Origin: an uncultured Roseicyclus sp.
GTDB lineage: Bacteria; Pseudomonadota; Alphaproteobacteria; Rhodobacterales; Rhodobacteraceae
Direction of reading: 5' to 3'
Length of the DNA stretch: 64,000 nt
Assembly: GCA_947500415.1 (NCBI GenBank)
Contig: CANMRT010000002.1
Span: 992,001 to 1,056,000 of the forward strand
A program made the position numbers and the translations under genes. The notes below the pieces were generated by a model. It searched no databases. It was not told the DNA's origin and was given only the letters and a program-made list of their open reading frames with translations. Below are positions 17,688-41,200 of the stretch, one piece after another; position 1 is the stretch's first letter; every line of letters starts with the position of its first letter.

Positions 17688-17884
17688 TCGCCTTCGGGCG
17701 GGTCCTTAGGGAAAGCGACGATCAGGTTGTAGGCAAGGTAGCCGCCGATCCCTGCAAAGAGGTAGGCCCAGATGTCGTTGCCCTGGCTCATCTCGAATGC
17801 CGCCCAAAGGAAGCAGGCCCCGACCATGGCGTATCGTCGCCAGGCGGGTCGGAAGAACGGATGGGATGGGTCGAGCAGGCGCAT
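17684..17884 (-). CDS. Small membrane protein, unknown
   Basis: A 66-residue protein with two short hydrophobic stretches (about residues 19-30 and 38-53) and an N-terminus rich in Pro, Arg and His. No family is recognised. Its first base coincides with the last base region of the alcohol dehydrogenase gene upstream (shared base 17884), so it is probably the terminal gene of the nagA operon. Its stop codon overlaps the iolG stop from the other strand. Confidence 0.6.
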   Translation of the reverse strand: MRLLDPSHPFFRPAWRRYAMVGACFLWAAFEMSQGNDIWAYLFAGIGGYLAYNLIVAFPKDPPEGD

Positions 17885-20764: not shown

Positions 20765-20806
20765 CCACATCCCCCGCTTTGGCGCACTTTGCCAAGGACG
20801 GCGCGA

Positions 20807-24243: not shown

Positions 24244-26675
24244 GCCCTGAGACGCTTGAACTCAGGATCGTAGGGGCTTGCCGGGATCACGCGCGCCCCG
24301 ACCATTTCCCCACACAAGTCGAGTTGCATCTCAGCACCCGTTGCCGCCAGCTCCGGCTCCACAAAGGCATAGGCCAGGTTCTTGCCCACCCGATGTCCCC
24401 AATCGCCGGAGGTGATAGTGCCGACAACCTTAGGCCCGCGCATCAGCGATCCACCGCCATGGGCCGGCGCACGGTCTGTTGCGATCTCAAGGGTCACTAG
24501 CTGCTTTGTGGGTCCGGCTTTCTGACGCGCCAGAAGCGCATCCCGCCCGACAAAATCGCCCTTCTCCAGCTTCACGAAGCGCGACAGGCCCGTCTCGAAC
24601 GGATCAAATTCTGTCAGGATGTCGGCCTTCCAGTGCAGGAAGCCCTTCTCCATCCGCATCGACTCCACCGCGCGGGCACCGAAGATTTTCAGGTCATGGG
24701 CCTCCCCGGCCTCTCGCAACGCCAAGTAGGCTGCATAGAGCGAGGCATTGGGGACGTGGATTTCATAAGCCAATTCGCCGGAAAAGCTGACGGGCATGAT
24801 CGTCGCCGGGGCAAATCCCACATGAGCTTCGCGCACGCTCAGCCACGGGAAGGCCTCCGCCGACCAATCACCGCGCGCGCAGGCTGACAGCACGTCGCGC
24901 GATTTCGGACCGGCCAGAACAAGGATCGTCTGGTCGTTTGTCAGGGACCGGATCTGCACATCCTCATCATCGCGCAAATGGGCGGTCAGCCAATCCATAT
25001 CATGATATTCTGCGGCGGCGGCAGAGCCATACCAGACCCTCTCAGGCCCACGATCGCTGGCGGGCAGATTGGCGAAGGTCGCCTCGCCCTTCAGCATACC
25101 GTGGTGGTTAAGGAGGTATCCCAAGCCCACGCGCCCTTCCCGCTTGGCAACGGTCCCGCAGACCATCCGATCGAGGAATGCATGGCGGTCAGCGCCCGCG
25201 ATCTCAAACCGATTGAACCCGTTGACCTCGCAGAGTCCAGCATTGGTCTGAACATTCGCGACCTCTGCGGCCACGACATCAAAGGCCTCGTCGAAATCGA
25301 AGCTTAACGAAGGATGAAAGTCCGGAGACGGCTTGATGTAGTCCACTCGCTCCCATCCATTCACAACGGTGAATTCCGCCCCTTCCGCCGCAAGCACCGG
25401 CGTCAGTGGCGTGGTCTTCGCGGGGCGGCCCGCGGGGCGGTGTTCATGCGGGAAGTGGAAGCGGAACTCGTTCTGGTAATCCTCGATTGCTTTCAGCGCT
25501 GTTAGCTCCACGCTCGCGTGTCCCGTGAACCGACGCGGGTCGATCACCCAAGTGTCGTATTGCGCCTCGCCGTGCACGATCTGCTGCGCGAGAAGCCAGC
25601 CGTGGCCGCCGCCTTCGCCAACACCCGCGCGCAGGCCGATGATACAGAAAGCGTTGCGCTTGCCGGGGATCGGCCCGACCAGGGGCGCGCCGTCTATGGT
25701 GTAGGTGATCGGGCCGTTCACCACGCGCTTGATACCTACTTCTGTCAGCGCAGGCATCCGTTCAAACGCGCCCTCCAGAACGTCCATCACACGGTCCAGA
25801 TCATCCGGGCAGAGGTCGTTGGAGAATGCTGGGCTGATCCCGTCCATGCCCCAGGTCTTGCAATCCTGCTCGTAGAATCCAACCAACAACCCATTCTTTT
25901 CCTGCCGCGAATAATAATCGCTAATCGGGCAGCGCAGCAGCGGCATCCGGTGGCCCGCCTCGGCTATCGCAGGGATATCTTCGGTGACGAAATACTGATG
26001 CTCCATCGATGCGACCGGGTGCTGCACCCCCATCATCGCGCCCACTTCGTTTACACGGTAGCCACAGGCATTCACGACGATGTCCGCGTCAATGTCGCCC
26101 TTGTTGGTGTGAACCGTCCAAGTGTCATCCTTGTGTTGGGTAAGGCCCGTGACATCGGTGCTACGGTAAACCTCTGCCCCCGCCTTGCGCGCGTGAAACG
26201 CTAAAGCCTGACACAACTGCGCCGGGTCGATGTCGCCGTCTTCGCCGTCCCACAGCCCGCCCAAAAGGTTGTCGGTCGAGATCAGTGGGTGACGACGGGC
26301 GCATTCTTCAGCGTCAATCACCTCGAACTCCACACCCATCCCCCGCGCCATGGAGGAGAAATGGCGATACCCCTGCATCTGCGCTTCGGTATTTGCCAAT
26401 CGGATGCCGCCGTCGCCATGGTGGTAGCCAACCGGGTACTCGGGATCGTCGCGGAGTTTCTTGTAAAGCGCGATGGAGTGGCTCTTCAGCCCCACCATCG
26501 TCTGGTTCATCCCGAAACTCGTGACCTGCGCGGCGGAGTGCCAAGTGGTGCCCGAGGTCAGCTCATCCCGCTCGATCAGGACAACATCGGACCAACCTTC
26601 CTGCGTCAGGTGGTAGAGCGTCGAACACCCGGCAATTCCACCGCCGATGACGGCCACTTTCGTGCGCAATTTCAT
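24240..26675 (-). CDS. FAD-dependent dimethylglycine/sarcosine dehydrogenase-like protein with GcvT domain
   Basis: An 811-residue two-part flavoprotein. Residues 1-380 are a DAO-type FAD domain (GGGIAGCSTLYHL start, with the SGTTWHSAAQ site for covalent FAD in this family). Residues about 430-810 form the folate-binding GcvT/aminomethyltransferase domain. Such enzymes oxidatively remove a methyl group from N-methylated amino acids and pass it to tetrahydrofolate. It starts 64 bases after the reductive dehalogenase stop, so it may be the last gene of that long transcript or have its own promoter. Confidence 0.85.
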   Translation of the reverse strand: MKLRTKVAVIGGGIAGCSTLYHLTQEGWSDVVLIERDELTSGTTWHSAAQVTSFGMNQTMVGLKSHSIALYKKLRDDPEYPVGYHHGDGGIRLANTEAQMQGYRHFSSMARGMGVEFEVIDAEECARRHPLISTDNLLGGLWDGEDGDIDPAQLCQALAFHARKAGAEVYRSTDVTGLTQHKDDTWTVHTNKGDIDADIVVNACGYRVNEVGAMMGVQHPVASMEHQYFVTEDIPAIAEAGHRMPLLRCPISDYYSRQEKNGLLVGFYEQDCKTWGMDGISPAFSNDLCPDDLDRVMDVLEGAFERMPALTEVGIKRVVNGPITYTIDGAPLVGPIPGKRNAFCIIGLRAGVGEGGGHGWLLAQQIVHGEAQYDTWVIDPRRFTGHASVELTALKAIEDYQNEFRFHFPHEHRPAGRPAKTTPLTPVLAAEGAEFTVVNGWERVDYIKPSPDFHPSLSFDFDEAFDVVAAEVANVQTNAGLCEVNGFNRFEIAGADRHAFLDRMVCGTVAKREGRVGLGYLLNHHGMLKGEATFANLPASDRGPERVWYGSAAAAEYHDMDWLTAHLRDDEDVQIRSLTNDQTILVLAGPKSRDVLSACARGDWSAEAFPWLSVREAHVGFAPATIMPVSFSGELAYEIHVPNASLYAAYLALREAGEAHDLKIFGARAVESMRMEKGFLHWKADILTEFDPFETGLSRFVKLEKGDFVGRDALLARQKAGPTKQLVTLEIATDRAPAHGGGSLMRGPKVVGTITSGDWGHRVGKNLAYAFVEPELAATGAEMQLDLCGEMVGARVIPASPYDPEFKRLRA

Positions 26676-26739: not shown

Positions 26740-29700
26740 TCAAAGTTCCAGTTCAATCACACCGTCTGGCTCTGCCGCGCGGGACTGGCACGTGATGATA
26801 CTGATCTGACGCTGTGCATTCGAAAGCACGAAGTCGCGGTGCTCCACTTCACCCGCACCTAAACCGCATTTGCAAACCCCGCAAATCCCATCCGAGCACT
26901 TCAGATCGATGGGATAGCCATTTTCGATCAAGACATCTGCTGCGGTCTTATCTTCCGGAACAAGGAATTCCTTTCCGGATCTCAAAAGCTTGATCGTAAA
27001 CGGGTGGTTCTCGTAATCCGGCAATTCAGGGACCGAGAAGTATTCAAGATGGCGGTCGTCTTCCGGGAATCCTTTGGCCTCAGCCACTTCCATCACCGCC
27101 GCCATGTAAGGCTCGGCCCCGCAGGTATAGACATGCGCGCCCTTGGAATGGGTTAGGATGTCAGCCAGGTCTGCGCGCGTGCCCTCCGACGAGACATGCA
27201 GCGTCACACGGTGCTTCCAGGGCACCGCCGCCAGATCATCCAGATACCCCATCGTCGCCCTTGTCCGGCCCGAATAGTGCATCTCAAACGGTTTGCCCAA
27301 AACGTGAAGGCGATGGGCCATGGCAATCATCGGCGTGATGCCGATCCCGCCCCCCATCAGATAGGTCATCGGCGCATCTTCATGCAGCGGGAAGTGGTTA
27401 ATCGGCTTTGAGATAAAGACCTTCCGCCCCTCATTGAAAATCCGGTGCAGCAGGGCCGAGCCGCCGCGCCCCTCAGCTTCCCGCAGCACGCCAATCTGGT
27501 ACTTCGACCGATCCGATGGGTCGCCCGACATGGAATATTGCCGCAAGAATTCGGGTGCGACCACGATATCGAGATGTGCGCCCGCTTCCCATTCCGGTAG
27601 ATCCGAGCCGTCTAGGCTTGCGAACTCGTAGATCGTCACATCCTCAGCCGACTGTTCGGCGCGCGAGATCTCGACCCGCAAGACCGGGCTTTCGTCGTAG
27701 TCCCGCGCCTTGTCGGCCGGGTCCTCGCCCCGCGCCAATCGTGCCTTATACTCTTCCGCGGTGATCATCTGCTGGTAGGCTTCGATCCCCGCCTCGCGAT
27801 CCATCGGGTAGGGATAAGGATAGGGGTGCGGCACCAGCGGTGCGGGATAAACAGCTAGCGTCTGGTCCTCATATTTTAGGTCCAGATCCTTCTGAAGGCC
27901 GCGTTCATTGACCGGCTTTTTCGTGGGCCGGTAGCCGCCGTCTTCCTCCAGCTCCAGATCCCACCACCATTTCTTGACCGGGTTCAGATCGCCACGGTTG
28001 AGCATGTCATCCAGCTTAGCCAACGCCGGCGCAGATCCCGGAACCTTCATCGCGGCCCATCGAAACACCGCGTCCCCCAACACGCCTTCCAGGTTCCACG
28101 GGCAGGTTTTCATGCAGCGCCCACACATCGCCCCGCCGGGCGTGGTGATCCGATAGGTGGCGCATTTCTGGCTGTCGGATTTCCAGATCTCATAGCCGTT
28201 GAACATCAGCTTTGGTCCGGCAGTAATCGCTCCAGAAGGGCACTCGCGGGCGCATTTCTTGCAGGCCTCGCAGAAGCTTTGCAGACCGAAATCGATGGGT
28301 TTGTCATGCTCCAACGGCAGGTCTGTCGTGACAACACCGGATTTCAGGCGCGGGCCGAGGTAGGGGTTCAGGATCACTTCACCAATGCGGCTGACTTCCC
28401 CCAGTCCCGACAGAAGCAGCAGCGGCGGCTGCAACACTTCTCCGTCCAACACCGTGTGGGCCTTGGCCTTGTAGCCAAGATTGCGCAGTTGACGCGCAAC
28501 GACCCCACCCAGAAGCGAGAACCTCAGATAAGCGCGCATGCTCTGCGCCACGCTGATCCAATCATCGCCTGAGGCCCCTTCCATGGTGTCAAAGCCCTGG
28601 TCGATAATCATCGAGATTGCGTGGTCGTGCGGCGGATCAAGCGGCTCTCCCGCCGCATCGTGGGAATACCATGTCCAATCCGGGCAGCGGCTGAGGCCCA
28701 CGGCATCAGCTCCAAGGAAGTAACTTGTCGCCTTCACAAGCTCTGCCGCATCGCGTGGATGAAGATCGGCCTTTTCCGGTACAGCTTGCCCATCTTGTAG
28801 AAGAACGAAAGCGCCCAACGCGCGGCGTTGGGCCATTGATGGGGCCGCCTTGCGCGCATAGTAGCCACCCTTGGCCCCGTCCTGCAGTGGCTTTCCCATG
28901 TCGCCAAACTGGGCGCGGGCGAACATATCCGCCCGTTTCGGCACACGCGGCACGCGCGCCTCGTCGATGAAGGTGGTCGGATCATCGACGCGTTTCAGTT
29001 TCTCGAACGGATGCGCGCCATCTACAAAGCGGCGATTGGCGTAGGCCTTGGCGCGGGACGGCATGACGTTCCCGCGCGCGAGGGGCATATCAGCCGCAAT
29101 CTCGAACGAAGTGGTGATTGCCGCGATCCCATAGTCCGTCCCGATGAACGGCGCTTCCGGCGTTCCATGCCCCGCAACGGCGAGCCCCGAAGCCACGGCG
29201 AGACGGTTCAGATCAACGTCAGAGGAACTCGCCGTATGGGCACGGGCATCATGGCCAAGGGTGCGCAGATAGTTCGCAATCACCACCGCTGTTTCCGCCG
29301 CCAACAGGCAAGAGCGATGCGCCGAAGCGCCCATGACCCAATCCGTCCCCGGCTCATCCGCAGTGGGTGCGCGAGGATGCTCGTAGAGGAAAACAAGCGC
29401 GTGGGTATGCCCCGCAATTGTTGTCGGCGGCGCCTGCATGGACTCCTTCAGATCCGCCATGATCATGTCGATGCCGGAGGCGAGCGTCTTGGTCTGGCGG
29501 GTACGTAAGTCTTCGGCCAGACGCGCGATACCGGGGTTGAGATAAGGCTGCTTCAACACCACCTCAGGAGGCAGAACGCAAGCCCCGATTATCGAGGCAT
29601 CTGCGAAATAGCCAAAAGATTTCAGATGATTGGCGCGCTCAGAAAGATCATCCGGCGTTTCAGCCACGGCCTTGTTGATCAGCCCATCCCGTATCGCATC

Positions 29701-29922
29701 CAGCATCGCCTGATGATCGCGCATCGCATTGACGATGGAGTCCGGGCGGTCGTCTTGTGCGAAGGACAGCTGCTGAAAGGGGGCGACACCTGACAGGTCC
29801 GCGCTAGTAGTCCGCGCGAGCGTCTCCATCCGGTGCGGCCCCAGATGCATGGGACGAGACTTATCGGAAAAAACGCGCAATCCCATGGGGCCAGCCTTCT
29901 TGTATCGTGCAAACCGCTGCAT
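26740..29922 (-). CDS. rdhA: Self-sufficient reductive dehalogenase fused to flavin/NAD/ferredoxin reductase
   Basis: A 1060-residue cytoplasmic RdhA of the non-respiratory type known from BhbA and NpRdhA. Residues 1-540 are the cobalamin-binding region. It contains a pseudo-repeat: LRTLGHDARAHT at 219-230 and LRNLGYKAKAHT at 479-490. Two [4Fe-4S] sites follow (Cys551, 554, 557, 561 and Cys587, 600, 603, 607). Residues about 745-960 resemble phthalate-dioxygenase reductase: flavin motif RQYS at 794 and nucleotide motif GGGIGITPM at 857. Residues 970-1060 are a plant-type [2Fe-2S] domain (Cys1009, 1014, 1017, 1045). No Tat signal or membrane anchor gene is present. The family removes halogen from halogenated phenols with NAD(P)H as donor. 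The substrate is inferred from the homogentisate genes in the same cluster. Confidence 0.9.
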   Translation of the reverse strand: MQRFARYKKAGPMGLRVFSDKSRPMHLGPHRMETLARTTSADLSGVAPFQQLSFAQDDRPDSIVNAMRDHQAMLDAIRDGLINKAVAETPDDLSERANHLKSFGYFADASIIGACVLPPEVVLKQPYLNPGIARLAEDLRTRQTKTLASGIDMIMADLKESMQAPPTTIAGHTHALVFLYEHPRAPTADEPGTDWVMGASAHRSCLLAAETAVVIANYLRTLGHDARAHTASSSDVDLNRLAVASGLAVAGHGTPEAPFIGTDYGIAAITTSFEIAADMPLARGNVMPSRAKAYANRRFVDGAHPFEKLKRVDDPTTFIDEARVPRVPKRADMFARAQFGDMGKPLQDGAKGGYYARKAAPSMAQRRALGAFVLLQDGQAVPEKADLHPRDAAELVKATSYFLGADAVGLSRCPDWTWYSHDAAGEPLDPPHDHAISMIIDQGFDTMEGASGDDWISVAQSMRAYLRFSLLGGVVARQLRNLGYKAKAHTVLDGEVLQPPLLLLSGLGEVSRIGEVILNPYLGPRLKSGVVTTDLPLEHDKPIDFGLQSFCEACKKCARECPSGAITAGPKLMFNGYEIWKSDSQKCATYRITTPGGAMCGRCMKTCPWNLEGVLGDAVFRWAAMKVPGSAPALAKLDDMLNRGDLNPVKKWWWDLELEEDGGYRPTKKPVNERGLQKDLDLKYEDQTLAVYPAPLVPHPYPYPYPMDREAGIEAYQQMITAEEYKARLARGEDPADKARDYDESPVLRVEISRAEQSAEDVTIYEFASLDGSDLPEWEAGAHLDIVVAPEFLRQYSMSGDPSDRSKYQIGVLREAEGRGGSALLHRIFNEGRKVFISKPINHFPLHEDAPMTYLMGGGIGITPMIAMAHRLHVLGKPFEMHYSGRTRATMGYLDDLAAVPWKHRVTLHVSSEGTRADLADILTHSKGAHVYTCGAEPYMAAVMEVAEAKGFPEDDRHLEYFSVPELPDYENHPFTIKLLRSGKEFLVPEDKTAADVLIENGYPIDLKCSDGICGVCKCGLGAGEVEHRDFVLSNAQRQISIITCQSRAAEPDGVIELEL

Positions 29923-29983
29923 TCTTCACTGTCCACCTTAATGCAGTGCAAAGACAATCGGTTTGCTGGATTTCTTGCGACCC

Positions 29984-30172
29984 TCAAGTTTGCCGCGCGG
30001 CTTCCAACGCCTCCGACAAGATGCCGCGGTCGCCGATGTGATTGGCCAAGACCAGGATCAGCCGCGCATTCAAGGCATCGGACTGGCCCTTTGTCAGACC
30101 GTCATGGGCGGCCAGGAGCGTGTCGTAGAACCCGTCCGGGTCCGGAATGTTAGGCTGCGTGTTTAAGGTCAT
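29984..30172 (-). CDS. DUF2783 domain protein, probable partner of the flavin hydroxylase
   Basis: A 62-residue acidic protein starting MTLNTQPNIPDPDGFYD with the helical DUF2783 pattern LTKGQSDALNARLILVLANHIGD. The ATG at 30172 overlaps the stop of the flavin monooxygenase (ATGA), so the two are coupled. DUF2783 genes are usually found beside such flavoproteins. A small coupling protein (MhaB) is known for 3-hydroxyphenylacetate 6-hydroxylase, and this protein may play a similar part; that is inference. Confidence 0.72.
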   Translation of the reverse strand: MTLNTQPNIPDPDGFYDTLLAAHDGLTKGQSDALNARLILVLANHIGDRGILSEALEAARQT

Positions 30173-31782
30173 GTTTGGGCCGTCGCGGTTTTCAGGGCTT
30201 GGGTGATCTGCTCCGCAGTCGCATCGCGCCACCGCGCTACGATATGTTGGTCAGGGCGGATGAGGTAAAGCGCATGGGGGGCCGCGCCGAGATAGCGGTC
30301 GCGCAGTGTATCGCTCGGGTTCGGGAGGCTCACCGAATGCACGCGGATGCCTGCCAGGCCGGGATGATCGCGGGCCTCCGTACCGATGGCCAGAAGCGTG
30401 AATCGACCGGTCAATTGGTCGAGCAGGAAGCCATTGCCAAGATCAGCGTCTGGGCACGGGCTGCCAGGGCGAGTGCGCTCCGGGCCACCAAGTCTGTCTT
30501 CGCCGTTCAACGAGTGACCATCGTAAGTGCATGGCACGCTCAACCGGCCAGAATTCACCATGGGGCGCGCGAAGGCTTGGTCCTTGGCGAGCGTCAGCAC
30601 CGCATTGCGAAAAATCTTCGACATCTCGGACTTCGGCGTCAGGAAATCCGTGGCACGGGTTGAATTGAGGATGTTCTCGTCTGCCGCAAAGGCGCGCTCT
30701 TCGTTGTAGCTGTCGAGCAAACCATCTGGCGCGTGACCCTTCAAAACAAGATCGAGTTTCCACGCCAGATTGTCTGCATCCTGCATCCCCGAATTTGCGC
30801 CCCGCGCGCCGAATGGGCTGACCTGATGCGCACTGTCGCCGGCAAAGATCACCCGGCCATGGCGAAAACGCTCCATCCGACGGCATTGAAATGTGTAGAT
30901 GGAGGTCCAGACGAGCTCATATTCGGTGCCATTGGGTAGGAACTCATCGATCCGTTGGCGAATACGACCCTCTTCCAGCTCGGCTTTTCGGTCGATGTCC
31001 CAGCCAAGCTGAAAGTCTATCCGCCACACATCATCGGGCTGTTTGTGAAGGAGCGCGGATTGCGGTGCTTCGGCCAACGGCGGCTCGAACCAGAACCAGC
31101 GCTCCGTGGGGAAATCAGCGGTCATTTTCACGTCCGCAATGAGGAAGTTGTCCTCAAACACGCGCCCCTCGAAGCTCAGCCCCATCAAGTCCCGCGTCGG
31201 CGACCGCGCGCCGTCGCAGGCAATGACGTAGTCGGCGGTCACGCTATATGGCCCGTCCGGCGTGTCGATCTGCAGCGTAACGCGATCCTCATCCTGCTCG
31301 ATCCCGGTCACAACGTTGCGACCGCGAATTTCGATCGGCTTTCCCGCTGCTTCAGCCCGGCGAAGGGCGTCCATCAGGAACTTCTCGAAATAGGGCTGCT
31401 GGAGATTGATGAAGGCGGGATTCTTGTGCCCGTCTTCAGGCAGGAGGTTGAAGTTGAAGACCTCGCCGTCGCCGTGAAACACCCGGCCCACATTCCACAC
31501 GACGCCCTTTTCAACCATGTCTGGCCCTGCGCCAAGGCGATCTGCAATTTCCAGCGTCCGCTTCGCAAAACAAATCGCGCGGGAGCCTTGGCCGACGCCT
31601 TCGTGGTCATCGAGGATCAGCGCAGGCGAGCCCTTTTGCGCAAGATCGAGGCCGGTCGCCACGCCGATGGGGCCACCGCCAATGATGACGACCGGGTGAT
31701 GCACCGGTGCCTGCGCAGATTGGTCCGGAACTGCGGTGTAGGGGTAAAGCTCGTGGGCAAGGGCGTAGGTGGCGCCGACCAT
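30169..31782 (-). CDS. Class A flavin monooxygenase, aromatic hydroxylase (MhpA/MhaA-like)
   Basis: A 537-residue FAD-dependent aromatic ring hydroxylase. It has the three family fingerprints: GGGPIGVATGLDL near residue 35, DYVIACDGARSPTRDL near residue 186, and RVIFAGDSAHQVSPFGARG near residue 312. A thioredoxin-like C-terminal domain follows. The ATG at 31782 has AAGGA ahead of it and is preferred to the TTG at 31788. Within a homogentisate cluster, the likely reaction is hydroxylation of a mono-hydroxyphenylacetate to homogentisate, with the DUF2783 protein as helper. Confidence 0.85.
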   Translation of the reverse strand: MVGATYALAHELYPYTAVPDQSAQAPVHHPVVIIGGGPIGVATGLDLAQKGSPALILDDHEGVGQGSRAICFAKRTLEIADRLGAGPDMVEKGVVWNVGRVFHGDGEVFNFNLLPEDGHKNPAFINLQQPYFEKFLMDALRRAEAAGKPIEIRGRNVVTGIEQDEDRVTLQIDTPDGPYSVTADYVIACDGARSPTRDLMGLSFEGRVFEDNFLIADVKMTADFPTERWFWFEPPLAEAPQSALLHKQPDDVWRIDFQLGWDIDRKAELEEGRIRQRIDEFLPNGTEYELVWTSIYTFQCRRMERFRHGRVIFAGDSAHQVSPFGARGANSGMQDADNLAWKLDLVLKGHAPDGLLDSYNEERAFAADENILNSTRATDFLTPKSEMSKIFRNAVLTLAKDQAFARPMVNSGRLSVPCTYDGHSLNGEDRLGGPERTRPGSPCPDADLGNGFLLDQLTGRFTLLAIGTEARDHPGLAGIRVHSVSLPNPSDTLRDRYLGAAPHALYLIRPDQHIVARWRDATAEQITQALKTATAQT

Positions 31783-31858
31783 GTTCAATCCTTCCGTGTC
31801 GTCCCTTAAATCGCTCCTCGGGTCAGCGTTCTAGCGGAGCGCAAACCCTCCTCGCAGA

Positions 31859-32779
31859 TCAGCCTTGCAGGGCTTCCCACATCTCGATGTCGCGTTTGTC
31901 GGTCCAGATCCTTGGATGGTCCAATCCGCGCGCTTCGTCATAGGCACGGGCCACATTGAAAGGCAGACAATGCTCATAGATGGCGTAATCGCTGAACTTC
32001 CGATCGCATTCCGCGCGAACCGCGTCCCACGCATCTTTGAGGGTGCCGTTCTTGGCGGCCACACGGGCAGCGGGGCGATAGGTGCTGTCGACGAAATCGC
32101 GGGTAGACTCAATGGCCCTGTTGACCATCTCCTGGCCAACCAAGGCATCGCCGCGACCCGGTGCGATGGCATCAACCTCGTAGGCCTTGATTGCGTCCAA
32201 CGTGCCGCCCCAATCGGCGAAGTGACCGTCGCCGCAGTAGCAAGCGGAGTGATATTCGACAATATCACCGGTGAACATCACGTTGGCGTCCGGCACGTGG
32301 ATCACCGCATCACCCGCCGTATGGGCGCGACCCACCTGTTTGATGTCGATGCGGCGGTTGCCAAGATAAACGGTCATGGCATCGCTGAACGTTGTCGTCG
32401 GATAGGTCAGACCGGGGATGCTTTCGTGCCCTTCAAAGAGGCGCGGGAAGCGTTGGAATTCGCTGTCCCAATCCTCTTGGCCCCGCTCGACAACCATCGA
32501 CCGCGCGGTGTCGGACATGATGATCTGATCCGCGCCATAAGCTGACGCGCCTAAGACACGGACGGCGTGGTAGTGCGTGAGGACCAGATGGCTGATCGGC
32601 TTGTCCGTTACCGTGCGCACGCAATCGATGACTTTCTGAGCCAAGCGCGGTGTTGCCTGCGCCTCGACGATCATCACGCTGTCGTCGCCGATGATGACGC
32701 CCGAATTTGGGTCGCCCTCTGCCGTGAAGGCGTAAAGACCCTCCCCGATCTCATCAAAAGTGATTTTCTTCTCGGTCAT
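31859..32779 (-). CDS. Metallo-beta-lactamase-fold protein with altered metal motif
   Basis: A 306-residue MBL-fold protein. The usual HxHxDH motif is replaced by HYHAVR (His69, His71, then Val and Arg at the Asp and His positions). The later ligands GRAHTAGD and FTGDIVEY are kept, so at most one metal site is complete. The ATG at 32779 follows AAGGGGAT and is preferred. Earlier in-frame starts exist at 32809 (ATG) and 32818 (TTG). It lies 100 bases after fahA and 76 before the hydroxylase. Its role in the aromatic pathway is unknown; a hydrolase for an ester, lactone or thioester is possible. Confidence 0.78.
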   Translation of the reverse strand: MTEKKITFDEIGEGLYAFTAEGDPNSGVIIGDDSVMIVEAQATPRLAQKVIDCVRTVTDKPISHLVLTHYHAVRVLGASAYGADQIIMSDTARSMVVERGQEDWDSEFQRFPRLFEGHESIPGLTYPTTTFSDAMTVYLGNRRIDIKQVGRAHTAGDAVIHVPDANVMFTGDIVEYHSACYCGDGHFADWGGTLDAIKAYEVDAIAPGRGDALVGQEMVNRAIESTRDFVDSTYRPAARVAAKNGTLKDAWDAVRAECDRKFSDYAIYEHCLPFNVARAYDEARGLDHPRIWTDKRDIEMWEALQG

Positions 32780-32879
32780 ATCCCCTTGCGAGGCGAAGGC
32801 TTTGGCCATTTCGATCAACTTTCGTCGTTGCGCGCAGGGTCACCGCGCTCTTTTGAGCATTTTTAAAACAAGGAAGCGA

Positions 32880-34130
32880 TCAGGGGGCGAATGGATGTTC
32901 AGCAGCGGGCATGACGCGACCGGTGCATGGGCCAAATCCGATACGATAGCCGTCGCCGTGGGAGGCACCGTGCAGGGCAAGTGTGTCGTTATCCTCAATG
33001 AAACTACGGGGTCCAGACGCCGTTTCGAGAGGCTCCTTACCGCCCCACGATAGCTCCAAAAGCGAGCCCCGATTTCTCTTTTCAGGGCCGGAAATGGTGC
33101 CAGATCCCAAAAGGTCTCCCACACGCATCGGGCCACCGGCGGAGGCGTGGTGGGCCAGCTGTTGAGCTGATGAGTAGTAGAGCTCGTTGGAATTGGTCTG
33201 GGCGATTTGCTCGCCGTTCAGTGTAACTGAAAGCGCGATGTCGTGGTTCATCGGCGTGGTGTCCGCGAGGTGCGGCAGCAGTGGCTTTTCACGTGGCGGC
33301 GTGGCCGTACGGAAAGGTTTCAGCGCGGCCGCCGTCACGATCCATGGGGAGATCGTGGTCGCAGTTGCCTTGGCCTGGAAGGGGCCCAGCGGCTGGTATT
33401 CCCACGCCTGAATGTCGCGCGCAGACCAGTCGTTCAGAAGCACATAGCCGAAGATGTTCTCAAACGCCTGATCGACAGTCAGGGGCCCGTCAGAAGGCGT
33501 GCCGACAATCGCGCCAAGCTCCAGCTCGATATCGAAGCGTTTGGATGGCGCGAACACGGGCGTATCCGCGTTCGGGGCCTTTAGCTGCCCCCAAGGGCGA
33601 CGGATATCGGTGCCTGAAACGACGACGGAAGATGCACGCCCATTGTAGCCGATGGGCATGTGCAACCAGTTCGGCGGCAGCGCATTCTCCGGCCCCCGGA
33701 ACATGGTGCCCACATTCGTGGCGTGGTGTCGGCCTGCGTAGAAGTCGGTGTATTCCGCGACCTTGAACGGCATATGCAGCGTGGCTTTGGCCATCGGCAC
33801 CGAAAACGTGGTTATGATGTCCTGAACATGGTCATCCGCGCCCTCAGCCAGCATCATCGAAAGCACTTGCCGATAGGCATACCAAGCGACTGGCCCAAGC
33901 TCCATGAAGTCGTTCCAGTTGGGCGCATCGAGCACATAGGCGTCGGGATCGGGGCGCAGATGGCCCGCAGCCTCTAACCCCGTTGCATCTACGATCCGAT
34001 CGCCAATCGCCACACCACAGCGCAGGTCGCCGTCATCGACAGAGAACACCCCGTAAGGCAGGTTGTTGAGGGGAAAATCGGTCTCGGGCGCATTTGCGCT
34101 CTCAAGCCAGGAGCGTTTGAGATCGGACAT
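32880..34130 (-). CDS. fahA: Fumarylacetoacetase FahA
   Basis: A 416-residue enzyme that splits fumarylacetoacetate into fumarate and acetoacetate, the final step of the homogentisate route. It has the N-terminal FAH domain, the metal-site YTDFYAGRHHATNVG near residue 127, RFDIELELGAIVG, NDWSARDIQAWEY and GTISGPEK. The length equals that of the eukaryotic-type enzyme. Its start overlaps the maiA stop (ATGA). Confidence 0.94.
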   Translation of the reverse strand: MSDLKRSWLESANAPETDFPLNNLPYGVFSVDDGDLRCGVAIGDRIVDATGLEAAGHLRPDPDAYVLDAPNWNDFMELGPVAWYAYRQVLSMMLAEGADDHVQDIITTFSVPMAKATLHMPFKVAEYTDFYAGRHHATNVGTMFRGPENALPPNWLHMPIGYNGRASSVVVSGTDIRRPWGQLKAPNADTPVFAPSKRFDIELELGAIVGTPSDGPLTVDQAFENIFGYVLLNDWSARDIQAWEYQPLGPFQAKATATTISPWIVTAAALKPFRTATPPREKPLLPHLADTTPMNHDIALSVTLNGEQIAQTNSNELYYSSAQQLAHHASAGGPMRVGDLLGSGTISGPEKRNRGSLLELSWGGKEPLETASGPRSFIEDNDTLALHGASHGDGYRIGFGPCTGRVMPAAEHPFAP

Positions 34131-34768
34131 CAGGTCTCCGTTGCGTCGGGTTGGTTTTCGGGCGCGGCGGCCACGATTTCTGGCACGTCCAGGCAGGCCG
34201 CCTCGATCCGGGCGATCTTCGGGAATGGGTCCAGTGATAGCCCCCAGCGGTGCGCGTTAACGCATTGCGCCACAATGCAGAGGTCGGCGAGGTCGGGCGT
34301 TTCACCGAACGCGAAGCCGTCGCGGTCGGGCAGCAAAGCCTCCAGCGTTTCAAAGCCTTCGTCCATCCAATGCAGCATCCAGTCTTTCTTTGCTACGGCA
34401 TCGGCCCCAAACCGGGCCTCAAGCTGGTCCAAGACGCGCAGATTGTTCACCGGATGAATGTCAGTCGCGACAACCAGCGCGGCTGCGAGCTGCTGGCATC
34501 TTTGTGCAGGATTACCCGAAAGCATGGGCGGTTCGGGGTAAGTCGCGTCGAGAAAATCGATGATGGCCAAGCTTTGGGTCAGCACAGTGCCGTCATCCAG
34601 CTTCAGGGCAGGCACGCCATAACCGGGATTGATGTCGCGATAGGCCTGCCCATGCTGTTCGCCGTTGTAGAGATCGACCGAGACCTGTTCATAGGCCACG
34701 CCCTTCAGGTTCAGCGCCGCACGAACACGGTAAGAGGTGGTGGAACGCCAATAGGAATAGAGGATCAT
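34130..34768 (-). CDS. maiA: Maleylacetoacetate isomerase MaiA (zeta-class GST)
   Basis: A 212-residue glutathione S-transferase of the zeta class. The N-terminal YSYWRSTTSYRVRAALNLKG is the zeta signature (SSCSWRVR-like), followed by the glutathione site VPALKLDDGTVLTQSLAI. It converts maleylacetoacetate to fumarylacetoacetate with glutathione as cofactor. It overlaps both neighbours by four bases, fixing it in the hmgA operon. Confidence 0.93.
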   Translation of the reverse strand: MILYSYWRSTTSYRVRAALNLKGVAYEQVSVDLYNGEQHGQAYRDINPGYGVPALKLDDGTVLTQSLAIIDFLDATYPEPPMLSGNPAQRCQQLAAALVVATDIHPVNNLRVLDQLEARFGADAVAKKDWMLHWMDEGFETLEALLPDRDGFAFGETPDLADLCIVAQCVNAHRWGLSLDPFPKIARIEAACLDVPEIVAAAPENQPDATET

Positions 34769-35121
34769 GTCACGTCCAGGATCGTCTCAAACCCGCCCAT
34801 GATCATGCGCGCGCCATCAACCAGTCCCGCTCCCATCAGCTTCTCGGTCTCAGGGTCAGACCAGACCGCCTCGTGGGCGGCATTACTGGTGGCCTTGTCG
34901 GGAAATTCCATCCAAGCGAAAACCACTGCCTCGCCTTCTAGCGCCTCGACCGCCCGGGGAAACGAAGTCCGCTGACCCGGATCCAGCGCCTCGCCCCAGC
35001 TTTCGACGCAACGCATGGCCCCATGCGCAAGGTAGAGCGCGGTCATCTTGCGTGCGGCCTCAACGTAGGCGGCCTTGTCGGCTCGTTTCACCGGCAGCAC
35101 AAATCCGTCGATATGGCTCAT
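34765..35121 (-). CDS. DUF1428 (YbaA-like) protein
   Basis: A 118-residue protein of the DUF1428 family, a dimeric ferredoxin-like fold with no proven activity. The start MSHIDGFVLPVKRADKAAYVEAA and the ending GARMIMGGFETILD are typical. The ATG at 35121 is one base past the small membrane protein stop. It is often seen beside homogentisate genes in relatives (from memory), but no role is established. Confidence 0.8.
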   Translation of the reverse strand: MSHIDGFVLPVKRADKAAYVEAARKMTALYLAHGAMRCVESWGEALDPGQRTSFPRAVEALEGEAVVFAWMEFPDKATSNAAHEAVWSDPETEKLMGAGLVDGARMIMGGFETILDVT

Positions 35122-35122
35122 C

Positions 35123-35260
35123 TCAGTCCTCCCTTTCGCCCGTAACCTCGCCTGCGCCTGTCTTGCCGCCAAAGCTGCGCGCGATGGCGACAAGGGCCAC
35201 CGGGAACGCGATAGAGGCGGCGATAACGACACCAAGAAGGGTCCAGGCGAGCGGTGTCAT
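35123..35260 (-). CDS. Small single-span membrane protein in the hmgA operon
   Basis: A 45-residue product that begins MTPLAWTLLG, has one hydrophobic helix (residues 4-27) and a charged tail with Lys, Glu and Asp. The ATG at 35260 lies one base past the hmgA stop, and the stop is followed after one base by the DUF1428 start. This tight packing on both sides is the main reason to believe it is real. No family is recognised. Confidence 0.6.
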   Translation of the reverse strand: MTPLAWTLLGVVIAASIAFPVALVAIARSFGGKTGAGEVTGERED

Positions 35261-35261
35261 G

Positions 35262-36617
35262 TCACTTCTTACCCGCGGTTCCGTCGAATTTCTTCTCAAG
35301 GCTTTCCCAGCAGTCAATGTAGTCGTCCTGCAGAGGCGCCTCATTTGCCGCAAACCCTGTCAAATGTTGGGGAAACCGGGTCTCGAACATAAACGACATG
35401 GTGTTGTCGAGCTTGTGAGGCTTGAGGTCCGCGTTGGACGCCCCTTCAAATGCATCGCGATCCGGCCCGTGGGGCAGCATCATGTTGTGCAGGCTCATAC
35501 CCCCCGGAACAAAGCCCTGGGGCTTGGCGTCGTACTGGCCGTAAATGTTGCCCATCAGCTCGGACATGATGTTCTTGTGATACCACGGCGGGCGGAACGT
35601 ATCCTCGGCCACCATCCAACGCTCTCGGAAAAGAACGAAGTCGATATTGGCGACACCCGGCTGGCCCGACGGAGCGGTCAACACGGTGAAGATCGACGGA
35701 TCGGGGTGGTCGAACAATACGGCGCCGACCGGGCAATAGGTCTTCAAGTCGTATTTCAACGGCGCGTAGTTGCCGTGCCACGCGACCACGTCCAGTGGCG
35801 AATGGCCAATCTGGGTCCGATGAAACTGCCCACACCATTTGATCGTGACGGTTGAGGGCACCTCGCGATCCTCATAGGCCGCGACTGGTGCCTTGAAGTC
35901 GCGCGGGTTGGCCATGCAATTGGCGCCGATTGGCCCCCGCCCCGGCATCTCGAATTTCGCGCCGTAGTTCTCACATACAAACCCTCGCGCCGGGCCGTCC
36001 AACACCTCAACCCGATAGACCAGTCCGCGGGGAAGGATCGCGATCTCTTGCGGCTCCACATCGATGATGCCCAGTTCGGTGCAAAACCTCAGACGCCCCT
36101 CCTGCGGCACGACAAGCAGCTCACTGTCAGCGGAATAGAAGTAGTCATCCACCATCGACGCAGTGACCAGATAGATATGGCTAGCCATGCCGACTTGCGT
36201 GTTTACATCTCCTGCGGTGGTCATCGTCCGCATACCGGTCAGCCACGTCAGCCTTTCATCGGAATGGGGCACCGCGTCCCAGCGGTATTGCCCGAGGGAG
36301 ATCACATCGGGGTCCACATTCGGTGCGCTCTGCCAATAGGGCAGCGCAATATTTTCATAGCGTTTGGAATGCTTGACGGAGGGGCGAATGCGGTAGCACC
36401 ACGTCCGCTCGGGTCGCACATCGGTAAAGGCCGTCCCCGAGAGTTGTTCGCCATAGAGACCGTAGTTCACCTTCTGTGGCGAATTCATCCCTTGCGGCAA
36501 CGCGCCTGCGAGCGCCTCGGTCTCGAAATCATTGCCAAAGCCCGGCATATAGCCTTCATGGGGCCCGGGTAGACTGGGGGCCTGCACCATCGGACGTGGC
36601 GTGGATTGTTCAGTCAT
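35262..36617 (-). CDS. hmgA: Homogentisate 1,2-dioxygenase HmgA
   Basis: A 451-residue iron dioxygenase that cleaves the homogentisate ring to maleylacetoacetate. The start [24 protein letters not shown] and the iron-site regions ([14 protein letters not shown] with His and Glu, plus a later [12 protein letters not shown]) are diagnostic. GGGGAGAG stands five bases before the ATG. It is the first gene of a co-directional set reaching to the reductive dehalogenase, with spacers of 1 to 100 bases between genes. Confidence 0.95.
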
Positions 36618-36812: not shown

Positions 36813-38054
36813 TCACTTCCGGTCCGCCACTCGCTGATCGTAGCCCTTCAGGGTTTCCAGCAGCGCTTTCCCTTCAGGCACAGAATTCCGGTCGCAAAAC
36901 TCTTGCCAGACGGCACCTGCCGGAAGGTCCTTGATCTCTTCTGTCACCATCAAGCGTTGCGTGTAGTCCAAGCTGGCTTCTGCCGTTTGCAACTGCGCCT
37001 TCGGCATCAAGAGCGCGCGCAGCAGGGCCTTTTGCATGTTGCGCGTGCCGATCACCCAAGCCGCCGTCCGGCTGATCGTGGCGTCGAAGAAATCGAGGCC
37101 GATGCGCGTGCGGTCCAGCAGATCGGCGAACACCAATTCCTGCGCCATCGCCACGATGTCGTCGTTAAGCAGGATTACATGATCACTGTCCCACCGCATT
37201 GGGCGAGACACATGGAGCAGGATTTCATCCAGAAACAAAGCGACCGAGCTGAGTTTATCGGCCACGTTTTCCGTCGGGTGGAAGTGTCCCATATCAAGGC
37301 ACAGTAACGTCTTGTTGCGGATCGCATAGCCCAGGTAGAACTCGTGACTACCGACGGTGCAGGCCTCTACGCCGATGCCGAACAGCTTGGACTCAACCGC
37401 GTCCAAAAAGTGCTCCTGCGGCGACGCCAGCATGGCGTCCAGGGATGCCTCCAACCGCGTCCGGGCGGCCATGCGATCTACCGGGATGTCCTTGTAACCG
37501 TCCGGCACCCAGATGTTGTTGACACAGGCGCTGCCAAGTTCTGCCCCCATCCTTGCAGCAATGTCTCGCGACCGTTTTCCATGCTCGATCCAGAACTCCC
37601 GGATACCCGCATCAGGGTGGGACAAGGTGAGATTATCGTCGGCCTTCGCGTGCGCAAAGAACGTCGGGTTGAAATCAAGGCCAAGGCCCTGCTCGCGCGC
37701 CCATTCCACCCAAGGCGCGAAGTGCGCATATTCGATCTCGTCCCTGTCGGGTGTGGCATCCGTATCGAGATACATCGCGTGTAGGTTCAGCCGATGGGAT
37801 CCTGGGATCTGTGCGTAGGAAAACTCCAGATCCGCGCGAAGCTCATCCGGCGTGCGGGCGCGGCCCGGGTGATTCCCGGTCGCTTGAATGCCGCCACCGG
37901 ACGCGCCGGTCTTAGCCTCGAACCCCGCCACGTCGTCGCCCTGCCAGCAATGCATGGAGATTGGAATGCCCGCTAAACGCTCCATCGCCGCTTCTGTATC
38001 CACGCCCCAGTCGGCGAAGATCGCGCGTGCGGTGTCGTAATTCTGCTTTGTCAT
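36813..38054 (-). CDS. rhaA: L-rhamnose isomerase RhaA
   Basis: A 413-residue enzyme of the E. coli RhaA type that converts L-rhamnose to L-rhamnulose. It shows the conserved start SMHCWQGDDVAGFE, the ATGNHPGRART block, the metal-site segments DAVESKLFGIGVE and CLDMGHFHPTE, and HVSRPMRWDSDHV. It ends the minus-strand rhaD-rhaA unit and starts 14 bases after rhaD. The isomerase is of the RhaA type rather than the shorter RhaI type. Confidence 0.93.
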   Translation of the reverse strand: MTKQNYDTARAIFADWGVDTEAAMERLAGIPISMHCWQGDDVAGFEAKTGASGGGIQATGNHPGRARTPDELRADLEFSYAQIPGSHRLNLHAMYLDTDATPDRDEIEYAHFAPWVEWAREQGLGLDFNPTFFAHAKADDNLTLSHPDAGIREFWIEHGKRSRDIAARMGAELGSACVNNIWVPDGYKDIPVDRMAARTRLEASLDAMLASPQEHFLDAVESKLFGIGVEACTVGSHEFYLGYAIRNKTLLCLDMGHFHPTENVADKLSSVALFLDEILLHVSRPMRWDSDHVILLNDDIVAMAQELVFADLLDRTRIGLDFFDATISRTAAWVIGTRNMQKALLRALLMPKAQLQTAEASLDYTQRLMVTEEIKDLPAGAVWQEFCDRNSVPEGKALLETLKGYDQRVADRK

Positions 38055-38068
38055 AACGCCGCCCTCCC

Positions 38069-40171
38069 CTAACGCGTGAACGCCTGAACGTTTCCCGCAT
38101 CCACGTTGATGATGTTGCCCGTGGACTTCGCAGACAGATCAGCGGCGAAGAAAAACGCGGCTTCCGCAATATCTTCCGGCAGTACAGAGCGCTTTAGCAT
38201 GGAACGTTCTCGGTACATCTCCTCCAGCCCGGCTTTGTCCGTGCCGTAGGTCGAGGCGCGTTGATCCAGCCAATCGCCTTGCCAGATCTTCGAACCTTGC
38301 AGCACCGCATCAGGGTTTACGACGTTGACGCGAATGCCTGCCTCCGCCCCTTCAAGCGCGAGGCAGCGGGCCAGATGCAGCTCACTGGCTTTCGCGGTGC
38401 AATAGGCCGATGCGTTCGGGCTGGCCGCAAGGCCGTTCTTGGAGCCGACGAACACAACCGATCCGCCCATATCCTGCACCCGGAACATCTTGAACGCTTC
38501 CCGGCTGACAAGGAAATAACCGGTGCTCAGGATATCCATGTTTTTCTGCCACAACGCTAATGACGTCTCTTCCACTGGCGCAGATGAGGCGATGCCTGCG
38601 TTCGACACCAGAATATCAATGCCGCCAAATTCCACTGCAGCCGCTGCGAAGGCGTCCGCAACTGCGGTCTCACTCGTGACATTCATGGATACGCTTCGGA
38701 CGACATCGTCAGAAAAGCTGTTGCTCAGGGCGTCCGTGGTGGCAGACAGGGCGTCATCGTCGATATCCGCCAGGACCACGCAGGCCCCCTCCGCCAGGTA
38801 TCGCGCCGCCGTAGCCGATCCAATGCCCCCCGCCCCGCCGGTAACCAGTGCCACCCGACCTGCCAGTGCTTTGGGCTTGGGCATGCGTTGCAGCTTGGCC
38901 TCTTCAAGCAGCCAGTATTCGATGTCGAAGGCCTCTTGCTCGGGCAATCCGCAGTAGGTGCTGACCGCACTGGCACCGCGCATGACGTTGATCGCGTTGA
39001 CGTAAAACTCAGCTGAGATTCGCGCAGTTGCCTTGTCCTTGGCAAAGGTGATCATGCCGACGCCGGGGATTAGATAGACGACGGCGTTCGGGTCGCGCAG
39101 CGGCGGGCTGTCGTCATGCTTGCAGCGCTCGTAGTAGGCGGCGTAGTCCTCGCGATAGGCGGCGACTTGTGCCGGCAGACCCTCCAGCACTGCGTCCACA
39201 TCCGGTTTCGCAGGGTCAAAGCTGACCACGAGAGGGCGAATTTTCGTGCGCAGGAAGTGGTCGGGACAAGATGTGCCGAGGGCCGCAAGGGCCTCCATAT
39301 CGCGTGCGTTAACGAACTCCAGCACCGTGTCGCTGTCCTCAAAGTGTCCCACCATGTGCTGTTGACCGGATACCATCCCCCGTATCGCAGGCATCAGTTT
39401 TGCGGCGATCGCGCGTCGTTCCATCGCTGAAACCGGGTTGTGGATCACCCCGCCAAAGGCAGGCACGCCCTCAGTCTTGGCGGCAAACCAATCCATCGCC
39501 TTCTGAATGACGTCGACGGTCAGGTTGTAGCAGGCTTCTGCGTCGTCATCCCAAGTGAACAGCCCATGGCTTTCCAGAACCACACCCTTGGCGTCCGGGT
39601 TTTTCAGGCAAAAGTCTTCCAACCAAAGACCCAACTCGTAACCGGGCCGTTTCCAAGGCAACCACCCGATATCATTGCCGAAAATCTCTGCTGTCAAAGC
39701 CTTGCTGTCCGCCGCTGCGGCAATCGCGATGATGGCATCGGGGTGCATGTGATCCACATGCTTGCGCGGAACATAGGCGTGCAACGGCGTGTCGATGGAG
39801 GCGGCGCGGGCATTTAGGTTGAAGGTGCAATGGGGCAGCAGGCCAACCATCTCATCTTCAAACTCGACGCCGCGATAAATGCCCTTCAAGGCGCGCAACT
39901 TATCCATGTAAAGCGTGGCAAACCCGTCCATCTTGATGGATCCGACGTCGCCCCCCGATCCCTTGACCCAAAGCACCTCGACCAATTCGCCGGACAAGGG
40001 ATCGGCCTCCATGACCTTTGCTGACGTGTTCCCGCCCCCGTAGTTGGTAATCCGCTTGTCAGACCCCAGCAGGTTCGAGCGATAGAGCAACTTCTCCGAC
40101 TCGGACATCTGGGCTGCTTTTGATGCATCCCAATCGTTGGATAAGCGCGCCTTTTCAGTGGTTTCCAACAT
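38069..40171 (-). CDS. rhaD: Bifunctional rhamnulose-1-phosphate aldolase/alcohol dehydrogenase (RhaD-SDR fusion)
   Basis: A 700-residue fusion. Residues about 20-400 are a class II aldolase of the adducin-like fold with the metal histidines in TPLHAYVPRKHVDHMHPDA. Residues about 430-695 are a short-chain dehydrogenase with VTGGAGGIGSATA and the catalytic YCTAK. It splits rhamnulose-1-phosphate into dihydroxyacetone phosphate and lactaldehyde and then oxidises or reduces the lactaldehyde. The ATG at 40171 is chosen over an open frame starting at 40252 that runs into the operator region. Confidence 0.92.
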   Translation of the reverse strand: MLETTEKARLSNDWDASKAAQMSESEKLLYRSNLLGSDKRITNYGGGNTSAKVMEADPLSGELVEVLWVKGSGGDVGSIKMDGFATLYMDKLRALKGIYRGVEFEDEMVGLLPHCTFNLNARAASIDTPLHAYVPRKHVDHMHPDAIIAIAAAADSKALTAEIFGNDIGWLPWKRPGYELGLWLEDFCLKNPDAKGVVLESHGLFTWDDDAEACYNLTVDVIQKAMDWFAAKTEGVPAFGGVIHNPVSAMERRAIAAKLMPAIRGMVSGQQHMVGHFEDSDTVLEFVNARDMEALAALGTSCPDHFLRTKIRPLVVSFDPAKPDVDAVLEGLPAQVAAYREDYAAYYERCKHDDSPPLRDPNAVVYLIPGVGMITFAKDKATARISAEFYVNAINVMRGASAVSTYCGLPEQEAFDIEYWLLEEAKLQRMPKPKALAGRVALVTGGAGGIGSATAARYLAEGACVVLADIDDDALSATTDALSNSFSDDVVRSVSMNVTSETAVADAFAAAAVEFGGIDILVSNAGIASSAPVEETSLALWQKNMDILSTGYFLVSREAFKMFRVQDMGGSVVFVGSKNGLAASPNASAYCTAKASELHLARCLALEGAEAGIRVNVVNPDAVLQGSKIWQGDWLDQRASTYGTDKAGLEEMYRERSMLKRSVLPEDIAEAAFFFAADLSAKSTGNIINVDAGNVQAFTR

Positions 40172-40258
40172 GAAGCCTCCCCTTCGGATGTCCGTTTGTC
40201 CGGCAATTAATCTGTTCCAAGGCTGCGGCGAGGCACAACATAAGTCAATCACGAATAA

Positions 40259-40299
40259 TCATTTCCAATCATTCTGCATCGCAGCATGATTGGAAATGA
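40259..40299. promoter_or_regulatory. 41-base palindromic operator of the rhamnose genes
   Basis: Arms of 14 bases (40259-40272 and 40286-40299) are perfect inverted repeats. The loop continues the symmetry (CTGC-ATC-GCAG), so the whole 41 bases are palindromic except for one pair and the centre. AATCATT occurs at 40257 and 40267, ten bases apart, and AATGATT again at 40305, the helical spacing expected of a DeoR operator. It lies between rhaD (minus) and deoR (plus). Confidence 0.72.
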
Positions 40300-40361
40300 C
40301 ATTTAATGATTGACAGATGCGCAGATGAGGGACCAACGTGACTCAAATCTGGGAGGATTCG

Positions 40362-41162: not shown

Positions 41163-41200
41163 CGCCCCCATCCATCAAGACGAACTCAACGGGAGGAACT

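Follow-up and report, generated by a model that had tools for sequence, protein, structure and literature searches.

A probable self-sufficient reductive dehalogenase gene joined to a homogentisate operon in an uncultured Roseicyclus, with recurrent but not fixed linkage of its relatives to ring-degradation genes

Why should a gene for a reductive dehalogenase stand directly behind a homogentisate operon? The arrangement is found in a 64,000-nt stretch of DNA (the window) from an uncultured Roseicyclus sp. (GCA_947500415.1, contig CANMRT010000002.1, 992,001-1,056,000), in which a minus-strand run comprises hmgA, a 45-amino-acid (aa) open reading frame (ORF), a DUF1428 gene, maiA, fahA, a metallo-β-lactamase (MBL)-fold gene, a class A flavin hydroxylase gene, a DUF2783 gene and rdhA, which encodes the dehalogenase (RdhA) as a fusion protein. 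A preliminary description of the locus had listed these genes, their order, their single direction and their short gaps, and family cut-offs and coordinates bear out all of them. Genomes are referred to below by G labels (G000 being the window's own) and loci of relatives by L labels.

Our reading, held at about even confidence, is that rdhA is a portable debrominase gene that feeds brominated 4-hydroxyaryl acids into adjacent ring pathways and is here joined to the homogentisate operon. RdhA would be a cytosolic, cobalamin-dependent debrominase/deiodinase, supplied with electrons by NAD(P)H via the fused reductase module, and would remove the halogen ortho to the phenol hydroxyl. The operon would already have an entry enzyme of its own (an MhaAB-like flavin hydroxylase with the DUF2783 protein), rdhA having been joined at its 3′ end. 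A cell meeting bromo-hydroxyphenylacetate, bromo-hydroxyphenylpyruvate or an isomer would debrominate it with RdhA, the hydroxylase, or an HppD whose gene lies elsewhere in the genome, would turn the dehalogenated acid into homogentisate, and homogentisate would be degraded to fumarate and acetoacetate. Gene content, enzyme class, catalytic residues and recurrent linkage are read from sequence; that the substrate is a bromo- or iodo-hydroxyaryl acid seems rather probable, while the passage of carbon to homogentisate in this organism could go either way.

The class of the enzyme is the firmest part of this reading. As the preliminary description had proposed, RdhA can be placed with high confidence among the self-sufficient reductive dehalogenases of the BhbA/NpRdhA type, based on its TIGR02486 match, its similarity to NpRdhA and its catalytic residues; this is a known and widespread marine enzyme type, not a new one. 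Residues 171-730 match NpRdhA (4ras/6zxu/6zy0, 511-514 bits), and residues 744-1057 match phthalate dioxygenase reductase (2pia, 186 bits), with PF00111 over its cut-off. S422, Y426, K488 and R552 (NpRdhA numbering) are all kept; the tyrosine, lysine and arginine occur in 100/100 aligned RdhA rows, the window included, and the serine in 99/100, the remaining row being gapped. Cysteine motifs starting at 551, 587 and 1009 would hold two 4Fe-4S clusters and one 2Fe-2S cluster (roles of the mapped NpRdhA residues and clusters follow PMC7565698). Because homologues align from about residue 13 of the window ORF and carry an ATG there, the start most likely lies at 29886, giving 1048 rather than 1060 aa; the fusion in the preliminary description thus stands, whereas its length of 1060 residues and its place as the last gene of the run do not, since a further gene (FAD/GcvT, Table 1) follows after 64 nt. 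The ratio of nonsynonymous to synonymous divergence (dN/dS) against three relatives is 0.067-0.071, at a dS of 1.5-1.7 that is near saturation, and rdhA looks to be under purifying selection. A respiratory reductive dehalogenase (rdhAB) was considered and rejected, given the fusion architecture, neighbours that are DUF2783 and FAD/GcvT genes with no RdhB, and an N-terminus in which inspection by eye found no twin-arginine motif.

The Pfam model for RdhA, PF13486, fails to reach the window's rdhA, which TIGR02486 and NpRdhA do reach. Because PF13486 (Dehalogenase) scores over its cut-off at another site in the same genome (G000:C2:521000-521293) and not at this gene, Pfam-based surveys may miss the family to which the window's enzyme belongs.

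Published activities of related enzymes bear on the likely substrate. Relative to its best rate, the NADPH-driven JtRdhA of Jhaorihella thermophila is reported to reach 100% with 3,5-dibromo-4-hydroxybenzoate, 99% with 3-bromo-4-hydroxyphenylacetate and 66-84% with three listed iodo compounds, and to show zero activity on 3-chloro-4-hydroxyphenylacetate (PMC10463259). The Roseobacter MED193 enzyme (Ros_A3X954), which is reported to be oxygen-sensitive, converts 2,6-dibromophenol to 2-bromophenol, and marine environments commonly contain bromophenols (PMC13101508).

Linkage to ring-degradation genes recurs among relatives. In the 80 named relatives that score best by RdhA similarity among at least 583 confirmed, hmg or mha genes lie within ~10 kb of rdhA in ten (L055, L056, L060, L072, L074, L090, L092, L099, L101 and L112, the last with only MBL and hydroxylase genes seen near rdhA). 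Without the own-genus loci L055 and L056, linkage stands at 8/78 vs ~0.5 expected by a rough chance estimate; our chance estimates assume 4-Mb genomes and independent loci. Five plasmid rdhA loci, which with the best 80 relatives made up the 85 examined, showed no hmg/mha linkage. Across 99 loci, the commonest neighbour clusters of rdhA were the hydroxylase, MBL and hmgA (11, 10 and 10 loci; the next 9), with clustering at 45% identity, which splits diverse families (e.g., TRAP, tripartite ATP-independent periplasmic transporters, and MarR) and may undercount them.

These linkages differ in form. L074 has the window's core order and strand, no DUF1428 gene, a hydroxylase 65% identical to the window's and rdhA behind DUF2783, and its RdhA falls in a different clade from the window's. 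The rdhA gene is convergent with the hmg/mha cluster in L060, L090, L101 and L072, divergent from hmgA in L092, and upstream on the same strand in L099. Linked rows imply eight changes on the RdhA tree, a count made with no shuffled control and with gain indistinguishable from loss, on a quick tree (LG+G4 without mixture) in which 36/97 inner branches are open and long branches are flagged. A single transfer of the whole block as the source of all linkage is not favoured, hmg-linked rows being found in several clades.

The clearest substrate clue comes from linkage to the homoprotocatechuate route for hydroxyphenylacetates. Three loci, L060 (Sulfitobacter EhC04), L090 (Tateyamaria) and L101 (Ascidiaceihabitans), carry hpaE, hpaD, an hpaG-like gene and hpaH in that order, and rdhA closes the series, at a distance of 18 to 333 nt from hpaH and facing the mha/hmg cluster. 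HpaE, HpaD and HpaH are over their cut-offs in L090 and L101, as is HpaH in L060, whose hpaE, hpaD and hpaG were assigned by cluster membership; the hpaG-like gene product in L090 falls short of its cut-off (158 vs 276 bits). This linkage fits the preference of JtRdhA for 3-bromo-4-hydroxyphenylacetate, and together they make bromo-hydroxyphenylacetates plausible among the halogenated substrates that the preliminary description had proposed, whereas the inactivity of JtRdhA speaks against chlorinated ones (PMC10463259).

Other loci place rdhA beside other ring pathways. The pobA gene directly follows rdhA in L095, L100, L119 and L127 and was matched in 8/105 loci, plasmid pBHB included, and in G026 hppD lies 0.2-0.3 kb before rdhA. 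Further frequent neighbours (a LuxR-type regulator, 5-oxoprolinase genes, TRAP transporters, a chemotaxis protein and MarR regulators) do not point to any single substrate. The LuxR-type regulator is near rdhA in nine loci (e.g., L103, 9132-9920), directly divergent upstream in eight, and six of the nine also contain 5-oxoprolinase genes. In Roseicyclus L052 (5538-9885) and L053 (5537-9884), three co-directional genes run straight into rdhA; two proteins of L052, of 772 and 274 aa, had no NCBIfam match at 1e-20.

The constancy of the arrangement must be weighed here, and several observations count against a functional joining. All 13 Roseicyclus genomes have rdhA, hmgA and the hydroxylase, and rdhA is joined to hmg in just four (the window's, G001, G003 and G005). 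Eight genus genomes have the homogentisate operon complete without rdhA (L137-L144); rdhA was on these grounds rejected as an intrinsic operon member, and its earlier portrayal as a fixed part of the pathway is not supported. In three of the eight (G002, G006 and G012), the same strand does carry rdhA at 14-26 kb from the hydroxylase. The ninth unlinked genome, G007, has rdhA on a 6.9-kb contig whose linkage is not judgeable and which was counted as unlinked. In a family sample of one genome per genus (159 genera; rdhA threshold E 1e-200; many contigs short), rdhA occurs in 60 Rhodobacteraceae genera, away from the hydroxylase in most: it is within 10 kb in only 3/45 genomes with both (G000, G019 and G063), or, excluding the window, 2/44 vs ~0.2 expected (Poisson 0.02). 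In 7/60 rdhA-bearing genomes none of the three proteins (hydroxylase, HpaD, HppD) passes the thresholds applied, so rdhA is not tied to any single one of these pathways. In most loci the neighbours of rdhA are unrelated genes, and G003, with the same joined arrangement as the window, has HpaD and no HppD match. The stretch upstream of rdhA is without visible conservation, so a promoter of its own is possible. Finally, the putative role of the hydroxylase is drawn from likeness to MhaAB in size, order and neighbours.

These observations lend themselves to a rival explanation, in which rdhA is a general debromination/detoxification gene that came to lie behind the homogentisate operon by accidental gene shuffling and whose product has no metabolic connection with it. 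Its ubiquity in the genus with joining in so few genomes, the rarity of hydroxylase linkage, the seven genomes without partner genes, and the many loci that pair rdhA with a MarR/LuxR-type regulator or unrelated genes are all as an accident would predict. However, rdhA is repeatedly linked to hmg/mha, hpa, pobA and hppD, in several RdhA clades and more often than the rough chance estimate, and L074, with an RdhA from another clade, again has rdhA on the same strand behind DUF2783. We consider an accident unlikely, if the best placed of the alternatives. Some roseobacter plasmids hold both rdhA and the hydroxylase (e.g., Yoonia pSS15unnamed1), and shared small replicons may explain part of the loose linkage, but not the tight cases.

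If rdhA does feed adjacent ring pathways, the debrominated acid could be handled by HppD, by the hydroxylase if this is an MhaAB given a 3-hydroxy isomer, or by the hydroxylase if this accepts 4-hydroxyphenylacetate. The hydroxylase and DUF2783 genes overlap by 4 nt and adjoin each other in 30/30 loci mapped, in pairs that include those of Dinoroseobacter shibae pDSHI02 (with MarR and paa genes close by), Sulfitobacter and Halomonas (L153); a Variovorax pair has a hydroxylase 38% identical to the window's, and the DNA stretch around it shows no hmg genes. MhaA (566 aa) and MhaB (60 aa, a coupling protein) together form 3-hydroxyphenylacetate 6-hydroxylase, reported to be highly specific for the 3-hydroxy isomer and to yield homogentisate (PMC3053370). 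The window has the corresponding context, a class A flavin adenine dinucleotide (FAD) hydroxylase beside a ~60-aa protein and hmg genes, and our best guess is that the pair is MhaAB-like, a likeness of size, order and neighbours only. A plasmid search for MhaA gave matches annotated only as FAD-dependent oxidoreductase, monooxygenase or hypothetical, or left unannotated. If the likeness holds, the hydroxylase would take the 3-hydroxy isomer (PMC3053370); 4-hydroxyphenylacetate, the product of 3-bromo-4-hydroxyphenylacetate, would then be the wrong isomer, and the simple sequence of dehalogenation followed by hydroxylation in the preliminary description is not supported.

A second alternative takes account of this specificity by way of tyrosine. 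Sponges and algae make bromotyrosine derivatives, and RdhA would debrominate bromotyrosine or bromo-hydroxyphenylpyruvate for conversion to homogentisate by HppD, leaving the hydroxylase to serve a separate 3-hydroxyphenylacetate branch. The reported isomer specificity of MhaAB (PMC3053370), the hppD gene of G026 so close before rdhA, and the presence of hppD in the window's genome and in 41/60 rdhA-bearing genomes are consistent with it. Against this, hppD was matched in just 1/105 loci searched, that locus being the source of the query; the hppD of the window's genome is on another contig, and G003 carries the joined operon with no HppD match. We regard this route as improbable, slightly more so than an accident of shuffling. 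Less probable again is the complete scheme of the preliminary description, in which a chlorinated or brominated hydroxyphenylacetate is dehalogenated and then hydroxylated by the window's hydroxylase to homogentisate: gene order, JtRdhA activity on 3-bromo-4-hydroxyphenylacetate, the three hpa-linked loci and the genome's lack of HpaD over cut-off or HpaB speak for it, but JtRdhA is inactive on the chloro analogue (PMC10463259) and 4-hydroxyphenylacetate is not an MhaAB substrate (PMC3053370), so the hydroxylase would have to be a 1-hydroxylase with side-chain shift. Most doubtful of all is a complete aerobic pathway for brominated tyrosine-type metabolites. In it the aromatic amino acid decarboxylase encoded downstream in all four genomes with this arrangement would form a bromotyramine, which would be oxidized to 3-bromo-4-hydroxyphenylacetate and debrominated by RdhA; the hydroxylase, dependent on DUF2783 and working as a 4-hydroxyphenylacetate 1-hydroxylase with side-chain shift, would then yield homogentisate.

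Returning to rdhA as a portable debrominase gene joined to the operon, the structure of the run suggests that hmgA to rdhA may be transcribed as one unit. Genes are separated by 1 to 97 nt or overlap slightly; a promoter/terminator scan was uninformative, with six terminator-like sites, fewer than in shuffled sequence and none in intergenic gaps. The central pathway is complete, hmgA, maiA and fahA all being over equivalog-level cut-offs (Table 1). The same-strand run continues past rdhA into the FAD/GcvT gene, which also follows rdhA in L035 and L056, but not in L055, the three relatives with the joined arrangement. Those three lack the DUF1428 gene, which is present in the eight genus loci without rdhA; the 45-aa ORF has weak matches at the equivalent place in 7/11 other genus loci mapped.

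Table 1 Features of the homogentisate-rdhA run and two genes downstream of it in the window (match scores given with model cut-offs where available).
Feature	Coordinates	Strand	Evidence
hmgA, homogentisate 1,2-dioxygenase	35262-36617	-	TIGR01015 631 bits, cut-off 511; sole match in genome
45-aa ORF, single hydrophobic segment	35123-35260	-	
DUF1428 protein	34765-35121	-	PF07237 over cut-off
maiA, maleylacetoacetate isomerase	34130-34768	-	TIGR01262 256 bits, cut-off 171
fahA, fumarylacetoacetase	32880-34130	-	TIGR01266 466 bits, cut-off 375
MBL-fold metallohydrolase, conserved hydroxylase partner	31859-32818	-	PF00753 over cut-off; synteny
Class A FAD hydroxylase, MhaA-like candidate	30169-31788	-	PF01494 204 bits; NF006002 754 bits, cut-off 416
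DUF2783 protein, 62 aa, MhaB-like coupling-protein candidate	29984-30172	-	PF10932 101 bits, cut-off 25, on 82-aa ORF 29984-30232
rdhA, predicted self-sufficient catabolic reductive dehalogenase with phthalate-dioxygenase-reductase-type module	26740-29886	-	TIGR02486 186 bits, cut-off 160
FAD/GcvT gene (dimethylglycine/sarcosine dehydrogenase-like), possible last operon gene	24240-26675	-	PF01266, PF01571
Aromatic-L-amino-acid decarboxylase family gene	20807-22204	-	PF00282 307 bits; DOPA decarboxylase 7xin 374 bits

The wider genome is consistent with homogentisate as the outlet. It has one hmgA and one HppD over cut-off; because no HpaD is over cut-off (best 22 bits) and no HpaB match was found, hydroxyphenylacetates have homogentisate as their visible way to ring cleavage, in agreement with the preliminary description. 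HpaD is missing in 3/4 linked vs 1/9 other genus genomes (Fisher p 0.052, kinship uncorrected, with G007 among the unlinked), which is no more than suggestive as a reason for the joining. In the family sample, 31 of the 60 genomes with rdhA have an HpaD over cut-off. Within the genus, HpaD is over cut-off in 9/13 genomes and the HpaB family is found in 1/13, so another hydroxylase may feed homoprotocatechuate there. A cobT gene over cut-off in the window's genome is one sign of cobamide/cobalamin synthesis.

The decarboxylase family gene lies downstream of rdhA in 4/4 linked genomes and also beside the hmg cluster of G021 (L148), and a search of the eight unlinked genus hmg stretches found it in none of them; no NCBIfam model is over cut-off for the window's copy. 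Because an opposite-strand regulator, the FAD/GcvT gene (in 3/4) and, in the window, nagA lie between it and rdhA, the relation is an association only. In the window the decarboxylase belongs to a co-directional minus-strand block (17884-22204) with a glutamine-synthetase-like gene, a vicinal oxygen chelate (VOC) protein gene and an Fe-alcohol dehydrogenase gene. Genes for a thiamine pyrophosphate (TPP) enzyme, a PfkB kinase, KduI/IolB, a class II aldolase and Gfo/Idh/MocA proteins stand in a row on the plus strand (12155-17687), presumably for inositol-type sugar catabolism, and the region adjoining hmgA (36813-42202) holds, by eye, what we take to be rhamnose-catabolism-like genes with a DeoR-type regulator and a sugar-binding protein.

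The locus thus consists of known parts in a new arrangement, one not described, as far as seen, in the open-access literature searched; papers naming both terms yielded no link between reductive dehalogenases and homogentisate in their accessible text. This probable debrominase is present in more than a third of the sampled genera of the aerobic Rhodobacteraceae, and candidates for its physiological substrate are suggested by the repeated joining of its gene to those for homogentisate, homoprotocatechuate and 4-hydroxybenzoate degradation and for HppD. If rdhA does feed these pathways, the linkage would connect the cycling of bromine in the sea with general carbon metabolism. The joined locus also suggests an undescribed catabolism of brominated tyrosine-like compounds and bears on the role of the MBL-hydroxylase-DUF2783 module.

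Characterized relatives share much of this enzyme and varying parts of its context. The catalytic domain of NpRdhA (Nitratireductor pacificus; PDB 4ras, 6zxu) is 44% identical to the window's RdhA over 560 residues, and its proton donor and phenol-binding residues are kept, though NpRdhA is without a fused reductase and pocket positions 290, 307, 310, 311, 419 and 452 differ. The RdhA of L132 (Comamonas sp. 7D-2 plasmid pBHB), which we take to be BhbA, as PMC10463259 also indicates, is a full-length fusion 52% identical over 986 columns, and its gene likewise sits in a ring-degradation cluster, but one of 4-hydroxybenzoate/protocatechuate genes rather than homogentisate genes. The MED193 RdhA (L114, equated with the assayed Ros_A3X954 by strain name) is 71% identical over 994 columns, with 11/12 mapped pocket positions equal, but unlike the window its locus has no homogentisate genes within the 10-kb flanks. 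JtRdhA, likened to the window's enzyme by description rather than by sequence, is also fused to a phthalate-dioxygenase-reductase-type module and is reported to have the Y426, K488 and R552 found here; the accessible part of PMC10463259 mentions no homogentisate linkage. For the operon itself, the closest counterpart is mhaAB-hmgABC of Pseudomonas putida U and Burkholderia xenovorans LB400, for which the available text of PMC3053370 mentions no rdhA, unlike the window, but which pairs a ~560-aa flavin hydroxylase with a 60-aa coupling protein as the window does, the LB400 mha homologues adjoining hmgABC just as the window's hydroxylase adjoins its hmg genes (PMC3053370).

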